This document shows, piece after piece, positions 25,200 to 45,854 of a stretch of DNA of 64,000 nucleotides. Position numbers and translations under genes: made by a program. The notes under the pieces were generated by a model. That model saw only the letters and a list, made by a program, of their open reading frames with translations. It had not been told where the DNA came from and did not search any database. The DNA is from Selenomonas sp. AE3005 (GTDB taxonomy: Bacteria > Bacillota > Negativicutes > Selenomonadales > Selenomonadaceae): contig NZ_JMME01000006.1 of NCBI RefSeq assembly GCF_000686945.1, positions 1 through 64,000 of the forward strand, given 5' to 3'. Each line of letters opens with the position of its first letter. Within the stretch, counting starts at the first letter, position 1.

Positions 25200-25229
25200 A
25201 TTGTAACATAAAGATCCCACCCCACACAA
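25200..25229 (-). promoter_or_regulatory. Promoter of MBOAT cassette 1 inside the upstream terminator hairpin
   Basis: On the minus strand TTGTGT (25224-25229), an 18-base spacer and TACAAT (25200-25205). The spacer holds an interrupted G run (GGGGTGGGA) where cassettes 2 and 3 have a pure G tract. GGGATCTTT (25243-25251) pairs with AAAGATCCC (25210-25218), so the -35 box lies in the loop of a stem that may terminate cassette 2. Confidence 0.55.
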
Positions 25230-25274
25230 GACATTGCGGAGAGGGATCTTTGCGCTAAAATGCGTTGCTTTTTA

Positions 25275-27847: not shown

Positions 27848-27876
27848 ATCATAGCACACATGCCCCCCCCGTACAA
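27848..27876 (-). promoter_or_regulatory. G-tract promoter of MBOAT cassette 2
   Basis: On the minus strand TTGTAC (27871-27876) and an extended -10 TGC-TATGAT (27848-27853 for TATGAT) are spaced by exactly 17 bases. The spacer is eight G (27863-27870) followed by CATGTGTGC. Slippage in the G tract would change the spacing, a known phase-variation mechanism; that this promoter varies is inferred. Confidence 0.65.
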
Positions 27877-30423: not shown

Positions 30424-30453
30424 ATAATAGCACAAATGCCCCCCCCCCCACAA
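30424..30453 (-). promoter_or_regulatory. G-tract promoter of MBOAT cassette 3
   Basis: On the minus strand TTGTGG (30448-30453) and an extended -10 TGC-TATTAT (TATTAT at 30424-30429) with an 18-base spacer made of nine G and CATTTGTGC. The full tract is 11 G (30439-30449). Ten G would restore 17-base spacing. The layout matches cassette 2 base for base outside the tract length. Confidence 0.65.
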
Positions 30454-35430: not shown

Positions 35431-37855
<2,425 letters not shown>

Positions 37856-37880: not shown

Positions 37881-39038
37881 ATGATTTATTATGGCAAACA
37901 GACAGTAGACGAAAAGGATATCACGGCGGTCAATGAAGTGCTGACATCTGATTTCCTTACGCAGGGGCCCGCCATTGAGCGGTTTGAAAAAGCAATGGCT
38001 GATTATGTAGGCGCTAAGTATGCTGTGGCAGTAACAAATGCTACGTCCGCATTGCATATTGCCTGCCTGGCGGCAGGCTTGGGGAATGGTGACAGCCTTT
38101 GGACAAGCCCAATTACCTTTACCGCTTCGGCTAACTGTGGCCGCTACTGTGGTGCAGATGTAGAGTTTGTGGATATAGATGATGAAACCTACAACATGAG
38201 TGTTGCGGTGTTGGCTGAAAAGCTTGAAACTGCTAAAGCAGCTGGAAGATTACCCAAGGTTGTTGTGCCTGTACATTTAGCAGGACAGTCCTGTGATATG
38301 AAGCGCATTCATGAGCTGTCACAGGAATATGGATTTACTGTTTTGGAAGATGCTTCTCATGCTACGGGTGCAGATTATCTTGAGGGCAAGGTGGGCTCTT
38401 GTCAGTTCTCTGATATGACGGTGTTCAGCTTTCACCCGGTGAAGATTATCACTACTGGCGAAGGCGGTATGGTGCTGACTAATAGCGAAGACCTGTATGA
38501 GAAGCTGTGTCTCTATCGCAGCCACGGTATTACTCGTGACCCGAAGTTGATGTCACATGAATCTGACGGGCCTTGGTATTACCAGCAGGTGGATTTAGGC
38601 TTTAACTACCGTATGACGGATATACAGGCGGCATTGGGTTACAGCCAGTTGCAGAAACTGGATAAGTTTGTGGCTCGTCGCCGGGAATTAGTGGCCCGCT
38701 ATGATGAACTCTTGCAGGATCTGCCGTTGCGCACACCCTCCGTTATGGAAGGAGCAAATCCCTCCTGGCATCTTTATGTGGTGCGGATTGACTTCAGCAA
38801 GGTTAAGAAAACGAAGATAAAAATTTTTGCGGAGATGAAGGAAAGGGGGATTACCCTGAATCTGCACTACATTCCGGTACATACTCAGCCATATTACGAA
38901 AAAATGGGGCACAAACCGGAAGAGTGCCCCGTGTCGATGGATTATTATCGTGAAGCACTAACACTGCCGTTGTATTATAGTTTAACCAATGAACAGCAGG
39001 ACGAAGTGGTGAATGCGTTGAAGGAAGTTCTGGTATGA
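37881..39038 (+). CDS. pseC: UDP-4-amino-4,6-dideoxy-N-acetyl-beta-L-altrosamine transaminase
   Basis: Encodes 385 residues, a PLP enzyme of the DegT/DnrJ/EryC1 fold. AVAVTNATSALHIACLAAGL (~50-69) binds the cofactor phosphate, VLEDASHATGADY (~155-167) holds the PLP Asp, and MTVFSFHPVKIITTGEGG (~179-196) contains the Schiff-base Lys. It aminates the PseB product at C4. It starts 25 bases after pseB and its stop overlaps the next ATG (ATGA at 39035-39038). Confidence 0.94.
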   Translation: MIYYGKQTVDEKDITAVNEVLTSDFLTQGPAIERFEKAMADYVGAKYAVAVTNATSALHIACLAAGLGNGDSLWTSPITFTASANCGRYCGADVEFVDIDDETYNMSVAVLAEKLETAKAAGRLPKVVVPVHLAGQSCDMKRIHELSQEYGFTVLEDASHATGADYLEGKVGSCQFSDMTVFSFHPVKIITTGEGGMVLTNSEDLYEKLCLYRSHGITRDPKLMSHESDGPWYYQQVDLGFNYRMTDIQAALGYSQLQKLDKFVARRRELVARYDELLQDLPLRTPSVMEGANPSWHLYVVRIDFSKVKKTKIKIFAEMKERGITLNLHYIPVHTQPYYEKMGHKPEECPVSMDYYREALTLPLYYSLTNEQQDEVVNALKEVLV

Positions 39039-39907
39039 GCAAACTTTGCTTGGGGACAGTCCAGTTCGGCATGAAATATGGTGTTAATAATGCTTTAGGC
39101 CGTCAGCCGGATAAGGAGGAGTGTTATGAAATTATCGAAAAAGCTCTAAACTCAGGAATATCATGCTTTGATACAGCTAGTGCTTACGGCACGGCAGAAT
39201 CTTTGCTGGGGGAGTTTTCCTGGGGAAGGCTTACGCCACATATCATTTCTAAATTGTCACCGGAATGCCCTAATGATGATAAGGCTGTGGCGATGAAAAT
39301 TAGAAAATCGTTGCAGCGTCTGAGTCTGACTAAGTTATACGGTTACATGCTCCATCGTGGTGCTGATATGCAAAAGGATGCTGTGATGGCTGGTATGGTG
39401 GCAGCTAAGGAACAGGGACTTGTGGAAAAAATTGGTGTTTCCATATATGAGCCGGAAGAAGCATTGCAGGCTGTCGATGACAACAGAGTGGATATTATCC
39501 AGATTCCCTATAATGTGCTGGATAAAAGATTGGATAAGGCGGGCTTCTTTGTTAAAGCGAAAAAGAACAACAAGGAAATCTATGCCCGCAGTTCTTTTTT
39601 GCAGGGACTGTTGCTAATGAAGCCCGATGAGGCCGAAAAACGTGTGCCACAATCGGGGCGATTCATAGCAGAATTTCAAACGATAGCAAAAGCACAAGGG
39701 TACACGCCTACAGAGGCGGCTATGCTTTACAGTCTATGTAATGAAGGGATAGATTATGTTGTCTTTGGTGTGGAAACTTTAGGACAACTGGTGATGAATT
39801 TGTCTATCCAGAAAAAAGTTGACGGTTTTTCCAGTTGCTATAAGGATTTTAGAAGATTTTTTCTTGATGTGCCCAGAGAAATTATAGTTCCAAGTTTGTG
39901 GAGATGA
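39035..39907 (+). CDS. Aldo/keto reductase family protein of the pseudaminic acid operon
   Basis: Encodes 290 residues. KLCLGTVQFGMKYGVNN at the N-terminus, ISCFDTASAYGTAESLLG (~43-60, Asp/Tyr of the AKR site) and LYGYMLHRG (~106-114) place it in the AKR family. Similar reductases occur in nonulosonic acid and flagellin glycosylation loci. It is coupled to pseC by a 4-base overlap. A role in making a modified form of pseudaminic acid or its precursor, jointly with the SDR gene that follows, is inferred; neither is needed for the core six-step pathway. Confidence 0.8.
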   Translation: MSKLCLGTVQFGMKYGVNNALGRQPDKEECYEIIEKALNSGISCFDTASAYGTAESLLGEFSWGRLTPHIISKLSPECPNDDKAVAMKIRKSLQRLSLTKLYGYMLHRGADMQKDAVMAGMVAAKEQGLVEKIGVSIYEPEEALQAVDDNRVDIIQIPYNVLDKRLDKAGFFVKAKKNNKEIYARSSFLQGLLLMKPDEAEKRVPQSGRFIAEFQTIAKAQGYTPTEAAMLYSLCNEGIDYVVFGVETLGQLVMNLSIQKKVDGFSSCYKDFRRFFLDVPREIIVPSLWR

Positions 39908-39910
39908 TAT

Positions 39911-40714
39911 ATGGTGAGAGATAGTGTAAAGAATATTTTTTCTTTAACGGGGAAAACGGTGCTGATTACTGGCGGTGCAGGGCATTTGGGCCAAGCAATG
40001 AGCGAAGCATTAGTAGCTTTTGGGGCAAAACTGTTTATATTAGGGCACGATGAAGGAAAAAATAAGAGGTATGCTGATGAATTGAATCTAAAATATCCTA
40101 GTGCTGATTGTGAAGCTATTAAGTATGACCTCGATGATGATATCTCGATTGGTAATGCATTATCCAAAGTGTTAAAGAGAACGGGCAGAATAGATGTCTT
40201 GATCAATAACTCAGCTTATAGCTGTGCCAAGGCCCTGCATGAATATGAGTTTGAAGAATGGCAAAAAGGGTTATCGGGCACCATAAATGGGGTTTTTCGT
40301 ATGGTGAAGCAGGTGCTCCCTATCATGATGAAGCAAAAATATGGCAATATAATTAATATAGGCTCTATGTATGGTATGGTAGCACCCAATATGGAAATAT
40401 ATGGAGATAGCGGGCAAAATAATCCAGCTAATTATGGTGCGGGAAAGGCGGCAATAATTCAGCTCACAAAATATATTGCATGTACATACGCCAAGAATGG
40501 AATAAGAGCAAATTCGATATCTCCAGGTCCTTTCCCTAATCCAGAGGTACAGAAAAATGCAAAATTTATAGGAGAATTATGTCGAAAAAATCCTATGAGC
40601 TGTATAGGACAGCCAGAAGATTTGCAGGGAATAGTGATATATTTAGCATCAGATGCAAGCAGATATACCACAGGACAAAATATTGCTGTTGATGGAGGCT
40701 GGACAGCATGGTAA
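39911..40714 (+). CDS. Short-chain dehydrogenase/reductase, PtmA-like
   Basis: Encodes 267 residues of the classical SDR fold. TVLITGGAGHLGQAMSEAL (~16-34) is the cofactor site; NNSAYSCAK, IINIGSMYGM and YGAGKAAIIQL (YxxxK, ~176-180) form the rest of the active site; a GQNIAVDGGWTAW end is typical. It resembles PtmA-type oxidoreductases of flagellin glycosylation clusters. The stop overlaps the start of the nucleotidyltransferase gene (ATGGTAA), showing translational coupling. Substrate unknown. Confidence 0.8.
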   Translation: MVRDSVKNIFSLTGKTVLITGGAGHLGQAMSEALVAFGAKLFILGHDEGKNKRYADELNLKYPSADCEAIKYDLDDDISIGNALSKVLKRTGRIDVLINNSAYSCAKALHEYEFEEWQKGLSGTINGVFRMVKQVLPIMMKQKYGNIINIGSMYGMVAPNMEIYGDSGQNNPANYGAGKAAIIQLTKYIACTYAKNGIRANSISPGPFPNPEVQKNAKFIGELCRKNPMSCIGQPEDLQGIVIYLASDASRYTTGQNIAVDGGWTAW

Positions 40715-41433
40715 AACGACTAGGAATAATAGTACAGGCGCATATGGGATCAACTAGATTACCAAACAAAATGTTAAAAGATTTGTGCGGTAAGACGGTT
40801 ATAGGACATGTCATATCGCGGTTAAAGTTGGTAAAAAATGCAGATGAGCTTATTATTGCTACCAGCGCTTTGCCTGCTGATGATTTGTTGGTACAGGAAT
40901 GTCAGAAGTATGATGTCAAGGTGTTTCGCGGGAGCGATAGTGATGTTTTAGGACGATTTTACCATGCTGCTTGTGAGTATAACTTAACTGATGTAGCTAG
41001 AGTGTGCGCTGATAATACATTTGTCGATTGGTCGCTGATAGACCGAGAGATAGAAAAATATAAATCAGTAGCAAATTCTGTAGTAGTTCCTGGTGAAAAT
41101 GTCCCGTTGGGATTAGGGTGCGAGATATTCTCTTTTTCTATGCTGGAAGAGGCTTTTCAATGTGGTCAGGAAAGATATCATAGAGAGCATGTTACGCCAT
41201 ATATATATGAAATGCATCCTTCAAAAGTTCAAGTTGATTATCCTGTGTGCTACAGTAAATACCGTTTGACCTTGGATACTATTGATGATTGGAAATTGAT
41301 AGAAAAATTGTATAAGAAATTATATGCGGGTGCAGATGATATAACAATAGAACAGATAAATAAAGTTATGGAGGAAAACCCTTCATTTATAGAAATAAAT
41401 AGTCATGTACATCAAAAAGAAGTTAAAGAATAA
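40708..41433 (+). CDS. Acylneuraminate cytidylyltransferase-family protein (PseF/SpsF)
   Basis: Encodes 241 residues. The N-terminal IIVQAHMGSTRLPNKMLKDL (~7-26) is the nucleotide-binding signature of SpsF/PseF enzymes, which activate nonulosonic acids with CTP. KYRLTLDTIDDWKLIEKLY (~186-204) is the matching C-terminal block. In this operon it is the only candidate for CMP-pseudaminic acid synthetase. GGAGG eight bases before ATG lies within the SDR gene. Confidence 0.85.
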   Translation: MVKRLGIIVQAHMGSTRLPNKMLKDLCGKTVIGHVISRLKLVKNADELIIATSALPADDLLVQECQKYDVKVFRGSDSDVLGRFYHAACEYNLTDVARVCADNTFVDWSLIDREIEKYKSVANSVVVPGENVPLGLGCEIFSFSMLEEAFQCGQERYHREHVTPYIYEMHPSKVQVDYPVCYSKYRLTLDTIDDWKLIEKLYKKLYAGADDITIEQINKVMEENPSFIEINSHVHQKEVKE

Positions 41434-41450: not shown

Positions 41451-42605
41451 ATGCATATGAAGTATTGTAAAAGATGTTTACAACCGGATACGAGACCGGG
41501 GATTAAATTCAACGAAGAAGGGATTTGTTATGCATGTTTGTGGGAAGAGGAAAAAAAGAAGATAGATTGGGATGAGCGGTTTTCGGAACTCCAAGCAATA
41601 GCAGATGAAGCTAAAAAAGAGGCAAAAGATAGAGGAAATTTGTATGACTGTGTGATAGGCGTTTCTGGCGGAAAGGATAGTACCTTTCAAGCTATCTATG
41701 CAAAAGAAAAACTTGGACTCAATCCGCTGCTAGTGAATTGTGCACCTGATGAAATTACTGAAGTGGGACAGCATAATATAGATAACCTTAATAAGTTGTC
41801 TGGAGGATTTGATATTATATCTATAAAGTTGAATCCGGTTGTTGCAAAAAAACTAGCTAGGAAATCATTTTTTGAAAGAGGAAATATAATAGCTGGCTCA
41901 GAGTATTGTTTATGGGCATCTTCTTATATAATTGCTAATAAATTCAATATACCGTTAATAATCCAAGGGGAAAATGCAGCGCTGACTTTGGGGACTGTTT
42001 TAAGGCAAGATACATCTGGTGATGCTTTTAACGTATCGAAATTGGATACGTTAAGAGGTTTTGATATAGATGAATTGATAGCTGGAACAGATATATCGAA
42101 GAGAGATATGTATTTTTATAATTTGCCGAATATTGATGAGATGAAGCGCAAGGGAATCAAGGCAATATGGTTGCAGTATTATGCAAAAGAATGGTCCCAG
42201 GTATACAATGCAGATTTTTCTATAGCAAGAGGGTTATGGGGACGTACAAGAGTAGATTTACACAATATTGGGAGATACAGACGATATTCGGCACTTGATT
42301 CAGATTTGCAGATAGCTAATCAGATGATTAAATATCTTAAATTTGGTTTTGGCTTTGCAACCGATGAGGCTTGTTATGATATAAGGGAAGGAAGACTGAG
42401 TAGAGAGGATGCAAAGTGGTTAATTCGTGAGTATGATGGTAAATGTGGTGAAGAGTATATAAAAATTGCTTGTAAATACTTAGAAATTACTGTTGATGAA
42501 TTTTGGAATGTTATTGATAAGTTTGTTAATAAAGACTTGTTCTATAAGGATGAGCAGGGGAAATGGTGCCCTAAATTTAAAGTTGGCGAAGACTTTGATG
42601 TATAA
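41451..42605 (+). CDS. N-acetyl sugar amidotransferase, PseA/WbpG type
   Basis: Encodes 384 residues. Two CxxC pairs (YCKRCLQPDTRPG and ICYACLWEE, residues ~5-34) form a predicted zinc site, and CVIGVSGGKDSTFQA (~70-84) is the PP-loop ATP-pyrophosphatase motif. The family converts an acetamido group to an acetamidino group on nonulosonic acid or related sugars (PseA in Campylobacter, WbpG in Pseudomonas). GGGAGG precedes the ATG. The WbpG type uses HisH/HisF-like ammonia donors, which are absent here, so ammonia must come from elsewhere. AT-rich like its neighbours. Confidence 0.85.
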   Translation: MHMKYCKRCLQPDTRPGIKFNEEGICYACLWEEEKKKIDWDERFSELQAIADEAKKEAKDRGNLYDCVIGVSGGKDSTFQAIYAKEKLGLNPLLVNCAPDEITEVGQHNIDNLNKLSGGFDIISIKLNPVVAKKLARKSFFERGNIIAGSEYCLWASSYIIANKFNIPLIIQGENAALTLGTVLRQDTSGDAFNVSKLDTLRGFDIDELIAGTDISKRDMYFYNLPNIDEMKRKGIKAIWLQYYAKEWSQVYNADFSIARGLWGRTRVDLHNIGRYRRYSALDSDLQIANQMIKYLKFGFGFATDEACYDIREGRLSREDAKWLIREYDGKCGEEYIKIACKYLEITVDEFWNVIDKFVNKDLFYKDEQGKWCPKFKVGEDFDV

Positions 42606-42676: not shown

Positions 42677-43717
42677 ATGAACGTTGTTATAAGATGTGAT
42701 TCCTCGACAACAATAGGCAGTGGGCATTTAATGCGTTGTTTGACGCTAGCACGGTACTATTGTATTGATGGCCAAAATGTAACTTTTATTTGCCGGAATT
42801 TGCTAGGGAATATGAATGATTTAGCTCGAGAGCAAGGCTTTGAGCTAAAAATACTGCCTGTGGCAGATCCTAATGATTATTTGACAGGTTACGGCAAATG
42901 GCTGACGGTTACCCAGGAACAGGATGCCGCAGAAACCATTGAGATAGTTCGTAAAATGGATAAGGCAGAACGACTGGTTGTGGATAGTTATGCTATTGAT
43001 TGCACTTGGGAAAAGATGCTTCGTCCCTATGTGGGGGAGATTATGGTCATTGATGATTTGGCCAATCGCCAGCATGATTGTGATGTTTTGTTAGATCAGA
43101 ATTTTTATCTGCATAAAGAAATGCGCTATCAAGGCTTAGTGCCAGCACATTGCAGGATGCTTTTGGGGCCTGAATATGCTTTGCTGAGAGAAGAGTTTTA
43201 TCGTGTTAAAGCGCAGATGCGAGAACGCGATGGCAGGCTAAGAAATATTGTAGTCTTTTATGGTGGCGTAGATGCGACTGATGAAACCAGTAAGGCAATC
43301 GATGACTTGTTGGTTTTGCGGCAACTAGGTGGACTCATTAAAGTAAAGGTTACTGTGGTAGTGGGAGCTGGTAATGGACGTAAGGAAGCCATTGCCAAGC
43401 GTTGTACTGAGGTAGGATTTACTTATCTTTGCCAAGTCAGCAATATGGCAGAACTGATGGCAGAGGCTGATTTGATGCTAGGCGCAGGCGGCAGTACAAC
43501 ATGGGAACGCTGTTATCTGCAGCTTCCTGCTATTGTCACTGCCGTTGCGGAGAATCAATTTCAAATTTGTGAGGATTGTGCTGCGGCAGGTTTGATTTAT
43601 TATCTAGGGCATTGGGATCAAGTGAAGCAGGGGGACATTTGCAGGGCAATAAAAGAAATGTCTGCGCCAGATAAAATGCTGGCTATGCAAAGAAAAATGA
43701 GCCAGCTGATGGAATAG
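42677..43717 (+). CDS. pseG: UDP-2,4-diacetamido-2,4,6-trideoxy-beta-L-altropyranose hydrolase
   Basis: Encodes 346 residues of the GT-B/MurG-like fold. VIRCDSSTTIGSGHLMRCLT (~4-23, with the catalytic GxGHxxR) and MLGAGGSTTWERCYLQLPAI (~271-290) are diagnostic for PseG/SpsG. It hydrolyses UDP from the PseH product, giving the free sugar for PseI. It follows a 71-base gap after the amidotransferase and precedes the pseH fusion by 8 bases. Confidence 0.93.
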   Translation: MNVVIRCDSSTTIGSGHLMRCLTLARYYCIDGQNVTFICRNLLGNMNDLAREQGFELKILPVADPNDYLTGYGKWLTVTQEQDAAETIEIVRKMDKAERLVVDSYAIDCTWEKMLRPYVGEIMVIDDLANRQHDCDVLLDQNFYLHKEMRYQGLVPAHCRMLLGPEYALLREEFYRVKAQMRERDGRLRNIVVFYGGVDATDETSKAIDDLLVLRQLGGLIKVKVTVVVGAGNGRKEAIAKRCTEVGFTYLCQVSNMAELMAEADLMLGAGGSTTWERCYLQLPAIVTAVAENQFQICEDCAAAGLIYYLGHWDQVKQGDICRAIKEMSAPDKMLAMQRKMSQLME

Positions 43718-43725
43718 GTGATGAT

Positions 43726-44823
43726 ATGGACAAAAAGAAGATTTATTTGCGACAGGCTATCAGGGAGGATATGAAACTTTTCTATATGTGGGTGAATGAA
43801 CCTGCTGTTAGAGCAAATTCCTTCAATACAGAGCCTATTCCTTGGGAAGATCATCAGAAGTGGTTTGATAGGATCCTGAAAGATGAAGGTGTTCTTATCT
43901 ATGTATTGATACAGGATGATAATCCTATCGGTCAGGTTCGCTTGGCATTGGTGGATAGCAAATGGAAGATAAGTTACAGTATTGTCTCTTCATATCGCGG
44001 GCATGGGTACGGCAAAATTATTTTACAACTGGTTGAAAATGAGATGATTCGAGACGGTCATGTGGGGGAGGTCCTTTGGGCAGAAGTAAAAGCAGACAAT
44101 ATTGCCTCGCAGTGGATTTTTGTAAAGCTGGGGTATCGGAAGGTGGAATGTAAGCGTAGTGACGCTTATGCCTATGTTAAAGTAGTGAAGTCCACCCTAT
44201 ACAATAATGACGAACTTGTGCCCACTACGGGGGGGGGGGGGGCAGTCTTGCTGTTAAGAAAAAATGCCAACAGTTTCCCACTATTGGAATGGTTGGAGAA
44301 GCGAGTGAAGGTGCTTTTTTATAGTGGCAAACTGAATGCAGAAATGTTGCAAAGAATCCATCCAAGTCTGGTTATTAGCTACAATTATCGGTATATTGTC
44401 AATCGGGATGTAATTGAAGCGGCGCAGGGGCGGATTATTAATCTGCATACATCTCTGTTGCCTTGGAATCGTGGTTCTTCACCGAATTTATGGAGTTTTA
44501 TTGAGAATTCGCCTAAAGGTGTAACTATTCATATGCTAGATGAAGGATTGGACACTGGTGACATCTTGTTGCAAAAGGAATTAATCTTTGATGAGGAGCG
44601 GGATACCTTACGTTCCTCTTACGAAAAGTTAAATCAAGAAATCGTAGAGTTATTGCAAGATAATTGGTCATACATCTATGGGGGAGGTTGGCGTCCTAAT
44701 AAGCAATCTTATGGTGGTAGTAAGCATACAATGAAGGATTTACATGAATTTTTGCAAGGGCGGTCATTTTCTTACGATATGACCATTGCAGAGTTTAAGA
44801 GAGAATTTAACGTAAGGAGCTGA
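43726..44823 (+). CDS. PseH-type N-acetyltransferase fused to a sugar formyltransferase
   Basis: Encodes 365 residues. Residues 1-~155 are a GNAT domain (WVNEPAVRANSFNTEPIPWE; acetyl-CoA loop SSYRGHGYGKI ~91-101), as in PseH, which acetylates the 4-amino group of the PseC product. Residues ~175-365 match folate-dependent formyltransferases such as ArnA or WbtJ: RIINLHTSLLPWNRGSSPN (~237-255) holds the catalytic Asn and His, and GVTIHMLDEGLDTGDIL (~266-282) the Asp. The two domains are joined by TTGGGGA, encoded by a 14-G tract. With 13 G the frame stops after four more codons and with 15 G after about 30, leaving an intact GNAT domain alone. The gene lies between pseG and pseI, exactly where PseH is expected. 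Confidence 0.88.
   Translation: MDKKKIYLRQAIREDMKLFYMWVNEPAVRANSFNTEPIPWEDHQKWFDRILKDEGVLIYVLIQDDNPIGQVRLALVDSKWKISYSIVSSYRGHGYGKIILQLVENEMIRDGHVGEVLWAEVKADNIASQWIFVKLGYRKVECKRSDAYAYVKVVKSTLYNNDELVPTTGGGGAVLLLRKNANSFPLLEWLEKRVKVLFYSGKLNAEMLQRIHPSLVISYNYRYIVNRDVIEAAQGRIINLHTSLLPWNRGSSPNLWSFIENSPKGVTIHMLDEGLDTGDILLQKELIFDEERDTLRSSYEKLNQEIVELLQDNWSYIYGGGWRPNKQSYGGSKHTMKDLHEFLQGRSFSYDMTIAEFKREFNVRS
44229..44242 (+). repeat. Poly-G tract at the PseH-formyltransferase junction
   Basis: Fourteen consecutive G, encoding part of the inter-domain linker. As sequenced both domains are in one frame. It is by far the longest homopolymer in the window. Confidence 0.95.
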
Positions 44824-44825
44824 AA

Positions 44826-45854
44826 ATGTTGCAATTTGATGATAATAAGCCTTTTATCATAGCGGAAATGAGTGGCAATCATAACCAGTCGTTAGAACGT
44901 GCCATGAAAATTGTCGAGGCGGCAGCAGAAACTGGCGTGGATGCGATAAAATTGCAGACTTATACGGCCGATACAATGACCATCGATAAGGATACAGATG
45001 AATTCTTTATCACAGATAAGGAGAGTCTTTGGCAAGGAGAGTCGTTGTATAACTTATACCAGAAGGCGTATACCCCATGGGATTGGCAGGAGAAATTATT
45101 TCGTCATGCTGAGGCGTTAGGCCTTATTTGTTTTAGCACGCCTTTTGACAATACGTCAGTTGATTTTCTTGAAGGTATTGGCTGTCCGATTTATAAAATA
45201 GCGTCTTTTGAAAATATAGATTTGCCATTGATTCGCAAGGTTGCGAAAACAGGTAAGCCCATCATAGCTTCTACGGGTATGGCCAGCGTGGCCGAACTGG
45301 ATGATATGGTTCGGACGGCGAGGGAAAACGGCTGTGAGGATTTGACCTTGCTTAAATGTACTAGTAGCTATCCAGCGACACCGGAAGGGACAAATCTGCG
45401 GACGATTCCTCATATGAAGGACTTGTTTAATTGTAAAGTGGGATTGTCCGACCATACGTTAGGAATAGGAGCTGCAGTGGCCAGTATTGCACTAGGCGCA
45501 ACGGTTATTGAAAAGCATTTTACGTTGTCACGAGCAGATGGCGGTGTGGATAGTGCATTTTCATTAGAACCGGAAGAGATGAAGCTGCTGGTGCGGGAAT
45601 GTAATACCGCATATCAAGCACTAGGGGAAATTTGCTATAATACACAGGAACAGGAAAAGAAATCTTTGCAATTTCGGCGCAGTTTATACATCGTCGAAGA
45701 TATGGAAAAAGGCGATGTGCTGACAGAAAAAAACTTGCGTAGCATACGTCCAGGGATGGGGTTAGCTCCGAAGTATTATGATGTGCTGCTAGGGAAGAAA
45801 GTGAGCCAAGCTGTAAAGCGTGGTTCTGCCATGGAGTGGAATTTGTTAGAGTGA
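44826..45854 (+). CDS. pseI: Pseudaminic acid synthase
   Basis: Encodes 342 residues. FIIAEMSGNHNQSLERAMKI (~10-29) and DAIKLQTYTADTMTID (~39-54) are the NeuB/PseI TIM-barrel signatures; GLSDHTLGIGAAVASIALGA and TVIEKHFTLSRADGGVDSAF (~211-250) are strongly PseI-like. A C-terminal SAF (antifreeze-like) domain spans ~285-340. It condenses the 6-deoxy-sugar with phosphoenolpyruvate. It starts two bases after the fusion gene stop. It is the last intact gene of the pathway; the DNA after it is rearranged. Confidence 0.95.
   Translation: MLQFDDNKPFIIAEMSGNHNQSLERAMKIVEAAAETGVDAIKLQTYTADTMTIDKDTDEFFITDKESLWQGESLYNLYQKAYTPWDWQEKLFRHAEALGLICFSTPFDNTSVDFLEGIGCPIYKIASFENIDLPLIRKVAKTGKPIIASTGMASVAELDDMVRTARENGCEDLTLLKCTSSYPATPEGTNLRTIPHMKDLFNCKVGLSDHTLGIGAAVASIALGATVIEKHFTLSRADGGVDSAFSLEPEEMKLLVRECNTAYQALGEICYNTQEQEKKSLQFRRSLYIVEDMEKGDVLTEKNLRSIRPGMGLAPKYYDVLLGKKVSQAVKRGSAMEWNLLE

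Follow-up and report, generated by a model that had tools for sequence, protein, structure and literature searches.

A 14-G tract between a PseH-like acetyltransferase and a PseJ-type formyltransferase in Selenomonas sp. AE3005: a probable phase-variable enzyme with two functions in pseudaminic acid synthesis

The window analyzed here is a stretch of 64,000 nucleotides from Selenomonas sp. AE3005 (contig NZ_JMME01000006.1, positions 1 to 64,000). Judged by its profile matches, one operon in this window is that of a pseudaminic-acid-type pathway (Table 1). Between pseG and pseI lies a single open reading frame (43726-44823, plus strand) for one protein of 365 amino acids, in which two enzyme domains, an acetyltransferase of the GNAT type and a formyltransferase, are read in one frame across 14 G, as an earlier note on this DNA had proposed. 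The genes upstream of the operon encode glycosyltransferases, a Capsule_synth protein, and AlgI-like acyltransferases; the window also holds an SLH-porin gene, which we take to be in keeping with a Negativicutes host. A link to flagellin glycosylation, which the earlier note had mentioned for Campylobacter, was not borne out here: no PF01973 match was found in the strain's own genome, and the neighbors of the operon are capsule- and LPS-type genes. Flagellin glycosylation was dropped as a role on that account.

Table 1. Features of the pseudaminic-acid-type operon and of the acetyltransferase-formyltransferase gene
Feature	Coordinates	Strand	Basis
Capsule_synth-family protein, candidate glycosyltransferase, adjoining the pathway	35431..36852	+	PF05159, E 7e-10; function inferred
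pseB, UDP-GlcNAc 4,6-dehydratase (inverting)	36854..37855	+	TIGR03589, 556 bits, over cut-off
pseC, aminotransferase	37881..39038	+	TIGR03588, 547 bits, over cut-off
Aldo/keto reductase family protein of the operon	39035..39907	+	PF00248
Short-chain dehydrogenase of the operon	39911..40714	+	Profile match
Cytidylyltransferase, probable CMP-nonulosonate synthetase	40708..41433	+	PF02348, E 6e-25; far under PseF cut-off
N-acetyl sugar amidotransferase (WbuX family)	41451..42605	+	TIGR03573, 364 bits, over cut-off
pseG, UDP-sugar hydrolase	42677..43717	+	TIGR03590, 286 bits, over cut-off
PseH-like GNAT acetyltransferase domain	43726..44228	+	aa 1-168 including tail; Pfam, TIGR03585, AlphaFold, slot between pseG and pseI
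14-G tract, interdomain hinge, codes for Gly4	44229..44242	+	Sequence; G runs at the same junction in other genera
PseJ-type N-formyltransferase domain	44243..44823	+	aa 173-365; phmmer to PseJ 6ci4; Formyl_trans_N; conserved residues
TTG in formyltransferase frame, 5 nt past the tract, possible reinitiation start	44248..44250	+	Sequence
TAA closing the frame after loss of one G	44255..44257	+	Simulated tract lengths
TAG closing the frame after gain of one G	44322..44324	+	Simulated tract lengths
pseI, pseudaminic acid synthase	44826..45854	+	TIGR03586, 511 bits, over cut-off

The tract lies within the coding region and is longer than chance predicts for this window: under Markov models of order 0 to 5, the expected number of runs of at least 14 G on both strands is 2.6e-5 to 2.7e-3. 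Even runs of at least 9 G are few in this genome, with only four in 2.82 Mb. We recomputed the reading frames for tract lengths of 8 to 19 G. The full fusion is read at 11, 14, or 17 G. At 13 or 16 G, translation stops after ...TTGGGGQSCC, 4 codons past the tract, exactly as had been predicted for the loss of one G, and at 12 or 15 G it stops after 26 junk codons past the tract. The early stop foreseen for the gain of one G thus stands, with a tail somewhat shorter than the 30 or so codons given for it. No simulated length truncates the GNAT domain (aa 6-153), so the expectation that the first half of the protein stays whole in shifted frames was also confirmed. From these frames, slippage at the 14-G tract is predicted to join or separate two coding sequences.

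The second domain is, by its sequence, a PseJ-type sugar N-formyltransferase. It matches Formyl_trans_N (E 1.4e-18), and its nearest relative of solved structure is PseJ (PDB 6ci4 and 6ci2; phmmer to 6ci4, E 4.6e-42), with aa 169-352 aligned to PseJ residues 23-204, which is nearly the whole domain; the second structural match is the formylation domain of linear gramicidin synthase. The catalytic Asn-His-Asp, conservation of which had been noted earlier, is indeed kept (N239, H241, and D276) and is invariant among the family members. AlphaFold (six sequences) modeled this domain poorly, with a mean pLDDT of 61. Like the genes of PseJ type, the domain sits between pseG and pseI. Those genes, however, stand alone and have their own ATG, whereas the domain described here lies behind a G tract and an acetyltransferase, and its N-terminus has no ATG or GTG start, TTG at 44248 being the only candidate. 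Formylation of the UDP-sugar precursor of 7-formamido pseudaminic acid has reportedly been demonstrated in work on PseJ. The 7-formamido sugar itself has been described from Pseudoalteromonas distincta, according to a report cited in PMC7281560.

The first domain is harder to name. Pfam GNAT families match aa 6-138, and AlphaFold (six sequences) predicts a confident GNAT fold at aa 6-153, followed by a linker of low confidence (aa 156-188), which we counted in favor of reading the junction as a hinge. No other GNAT lies between pseG and pseI in the window, and this is the place of PseH. Its TIGR03585 (PseH) score of 44.2 bits is nevertheless less than half of the curated cut-off of 93.1 bits. 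The earlier assignment to PseH therefore holds as a PseH-like GNAT in the PseH slot and fails as a TIGR03585 equivalog. The low score also raises the alternative that the GNAT half is a PseH-like acyltransferase that acts on another amine or uses another acyl donor, so that the hinge would toggle formylation beside a second decoration instead of an acetyl-or-formyl choice at one amine. This alternative would fit the true PseH that accompanies the two domains in some relatives, in the same cluster in genome G180 (94.9 bits) and elsewhere in the genome in G015, with a protein just below the cut-off (92.3 bits) likewise encoded elsewhere in G122. It would also fit genome G104, where 10 G connect a true PseH, over the cut-off, with a PseH-like GNAT that lacks its own start codon. 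We consider it unlikely, given that the GNAT domain is the sole one in its slot in the window, that a PseH-like GNAT also fills the slot between pseG and pseI in G148 and G017, and that nothing else in G148 (a 99% complete genome) matches the PseH model. The frame in G104 additionally holds an acyl-carrier-like domain after the PseH, the G10 tract, and the GNAT, and we take this arrangement to mean that the pathway has one more gene in which a second enzyme follows a G tract in place of its own start. A gene of the 3-oxoacyl-ACP-synthase type that adjoins the G104 fusion contains a G10 run, and a similar gene in G180 (L105) contains a G8 run.

To compare the junction across relatives, we searched 189 genomes from the family and 380 from the class. 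Formyltransferases of this clade were found in five genomes from five genera, and in the tree they form one clade apart from the standalone PseJ-type proteins (support 100/99). An ATG or GTG start is absent from the N-terminus of all five, and a TTG is found there in the window sequence alone. A G run lies exactly at the junction in three genera. In addition to the 14 G of the window, G180 has the same GNAT-formyltransferase fusion in frame at 9 G, while in G122 both domains are intact in different frames that are split precisely at 10 G; there, the formyltransferase frame is intact over 198 codons and has no start, and 8 or 11 G would rejoin the domains. The off frames of G180 and G122 meet stops 3 to 5 codons past the tract. 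The search of other Selenomonadaceae suggested in the earlier note thus yielded both a joined and a split state in other genera, which supports its proposal of a hinge of hypermutable type that spares the first enzyme. Not all members keep such a switch, since in G015 the domains are split with no G run at the junction. In G028, the formyltransferase is fused in frame to PseG via Gly-Gly with no G run (L007), which may be what is left of the hinge, now locked, once the acetyltransferase was lost; this genome encodes PseB, PseC, the PseG-formyltransferase, and PseI, and no PseH was found anywhere in it. Trees of the PseH and formyltransferase proteins within the family are too weak to distinguish one gain of the tract from several. 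Beyond the family, a scan of genome contigs returned one 50% formyltransferase match (Desulfobacterales, standalone) and only distant matches to the GNAT domain, the sampled phylum searches returned standalone PseJ-type genes only, plus one weaker match, and a plasmid search returned a single match from Sinorhizobium.

These comparisons bear on two further explanations. The tract could be stable or mis-assembled, with no switching, in which case the gene would be either a plain fusion or a pair of genes that an error has disrupted. The assembly is a draft of 25 contigs, and homopolymer lengths are error-prone; against this, the identical junction carries a G run in three genera. Length and phase differ among them (in frame at 14 and at 9 G, out of frame at 10 G), and the frames that flank the run are intact, all of which makes such an error or a fixed tract very improbable. 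Alternatively, tract length could set whether the formyltransferase is fused or separately translated: out of frame, ribosomes would restart at TTG 44248 with the poly-G as the ribosome-binding site, and formylation would stay on at least in the minus-one phase. The position of this TTG, overlapping the minus-one stop region (TTGCTGTTAA), gives a layout that suits translational coupling. The TTG, however, is not conserved, with no start codon at that place in G122 and a CTG in G180, and a restart there would drop the first residues of the formyltransferase domain; we regard this explanation as improbable.

Frameshifts at G runs are also found outside this gene. Many genes in the examined relatives contain G runs, and several of them are frameshifted at these runs. 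In the strain's own genome, a gene with an adenylation domain of the AMP-ligase type (L033; G000:C7:78908-78917) is frameshifted at a G10 run, apparently in an off state, and G122 has 22 runs of at least 9 G, most of them with C before and TA after. We take the frameshifts in the own and related genomes to support switching in the group, short of proof for this strain. Several of the runs in G122 split methyltransferase-like genes. In G011, a merger by slippage of the deacetylase with the next GNAT was tested and rejected, every phase ending in a stop within about 25 codons.

G-rich stretches of another kind occur on the minus strand of the window, at each of the window's three AlgI-like acyltransferase genes (30439-30449, 27863-27870, and 25219-25234), where they lie between a TTG-type -35 element and a -10-like site. 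The first two read TGTCTTGT-G11-CATTTGTGCTATTAT and CTTGTAC-G8-CATGTGTGCTATGAT, and the third is an interrupted run. The same G-rich promoter-like element, with G9, is present in G015, G028, and G148. These elements are probably phase-variable promoters governed by spacer length.

Taken together, we propose that the gene encodes a bifunctional, phase-variable enzyme that takes part in pseudaminic acid synthesis, a reading to which we assign a probability of about 0.6. The PseH-like GNAT half would always be made, and the PseJ-type half, which has no good start codon of its own, would be made only at 3n+2 G, with slipped-strand mispairing altering the length of the tract. In cells with the tract in frame, the second domain would N-formylate UDP-4-amino-4,6-dideoxy-AltNAc, leading to 7-formamido pseudaminic acid alongside the acetyl form; out-of-frame cells would make the N-acetyl sugar only. 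As a mechanism, the phase-variable domain switch is well supported by the reading frames and their counterparts in other genera; slippage in this strain, the substrates, and the sugars made are what we infer.

Formylation within the pathway, as the earlier note had it, agrees with these data, the formyltransferase being of PseJ type, but we think it more probable that one amine is either acetylated or formylated than that the two reactions follow one another. Standalone PseJ-type genes (L018, L028, and L029) have their own ATG and lie between pseG and pseI, where no PseH adjoins them. Because such genes fill the PseH slot and G028 has a pathway without PseH, in which the formyltransferase can apparently stand in for that enzyme, the formyltransferase most likely uses the amine that PseH uses. 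The acetyl-or-formyl choice itself is something we infer, and the GNAT domain may act elsewhere, given its score under the PseH cut-off and the true PseH in the G180 cluster. More tentatively, the two domains might compete for one amine with one- and two-carbon donors, the mutable hinge adding or removing one competitor; the locus would then be a genetic selector of formyl versus acetyl in which a G tract replaces the start codon of the second gene, an idea that we hold to be possible though rather doubtful. If it is true, the WbuX amidotransferase, possibly acting on one product only, would extend the selection to a three-way choice.

Phase variation usually toggles a whole gene on or off. 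A slip at this tract should instead remove one of two catalytic domains while the pathway keeps running, and the cell would keep its surface sugar in a chemically altered form. The resulting prediction from genotype to glycan is testable, as a shift of 14 Da would be set by one base. The case also indicates that a G tract can replace a start codon.

We found no study of phase variation in Negativicutes in the open-access literature searched. The earlier note had called a tract that serves as a hinge unusual, and that claim has to be tempered, as both a gene-merging tract (PMC2823697) and phase-variable formyltransferases in Campylobacter (PMC6321876) have been published. For HCAN_0660/0661 of Helicobacter canadensis, Snyder et al. 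(2010) proposed that a poly-G tract determines whether two proteins are made separately or as one merged product and considered a gene-merging tract perhaps unprecedented (PMC2823697). As in our case, the poly-G lies near the end of one gene, and slippage would merge the next gene with it. Both products of HCAN_0660/0661 are hypothetical, however, whereas here both are recognizable enzymes of one pathway, the second sequence has no good start itself, and three genera share the arrangement. The PhasomeIt catalogue lists poly-G formyltransferases in Campylobacter coli (lgrA, G 8-10) and C. fetus (CFT03427_1556, G 9-10) (PMC6321876). These genes resemble ours in combining a formyltransferase domain with a poly-G tract, and the name lgrA is that of the gramicidin synthase, the formylation domain of which is also among the matches of the domain described here. 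The catalogue is silent on whether the Campylobacter tracts join an acetyltransferase, and the C. coli and C. fetus loci may have the same hinge.
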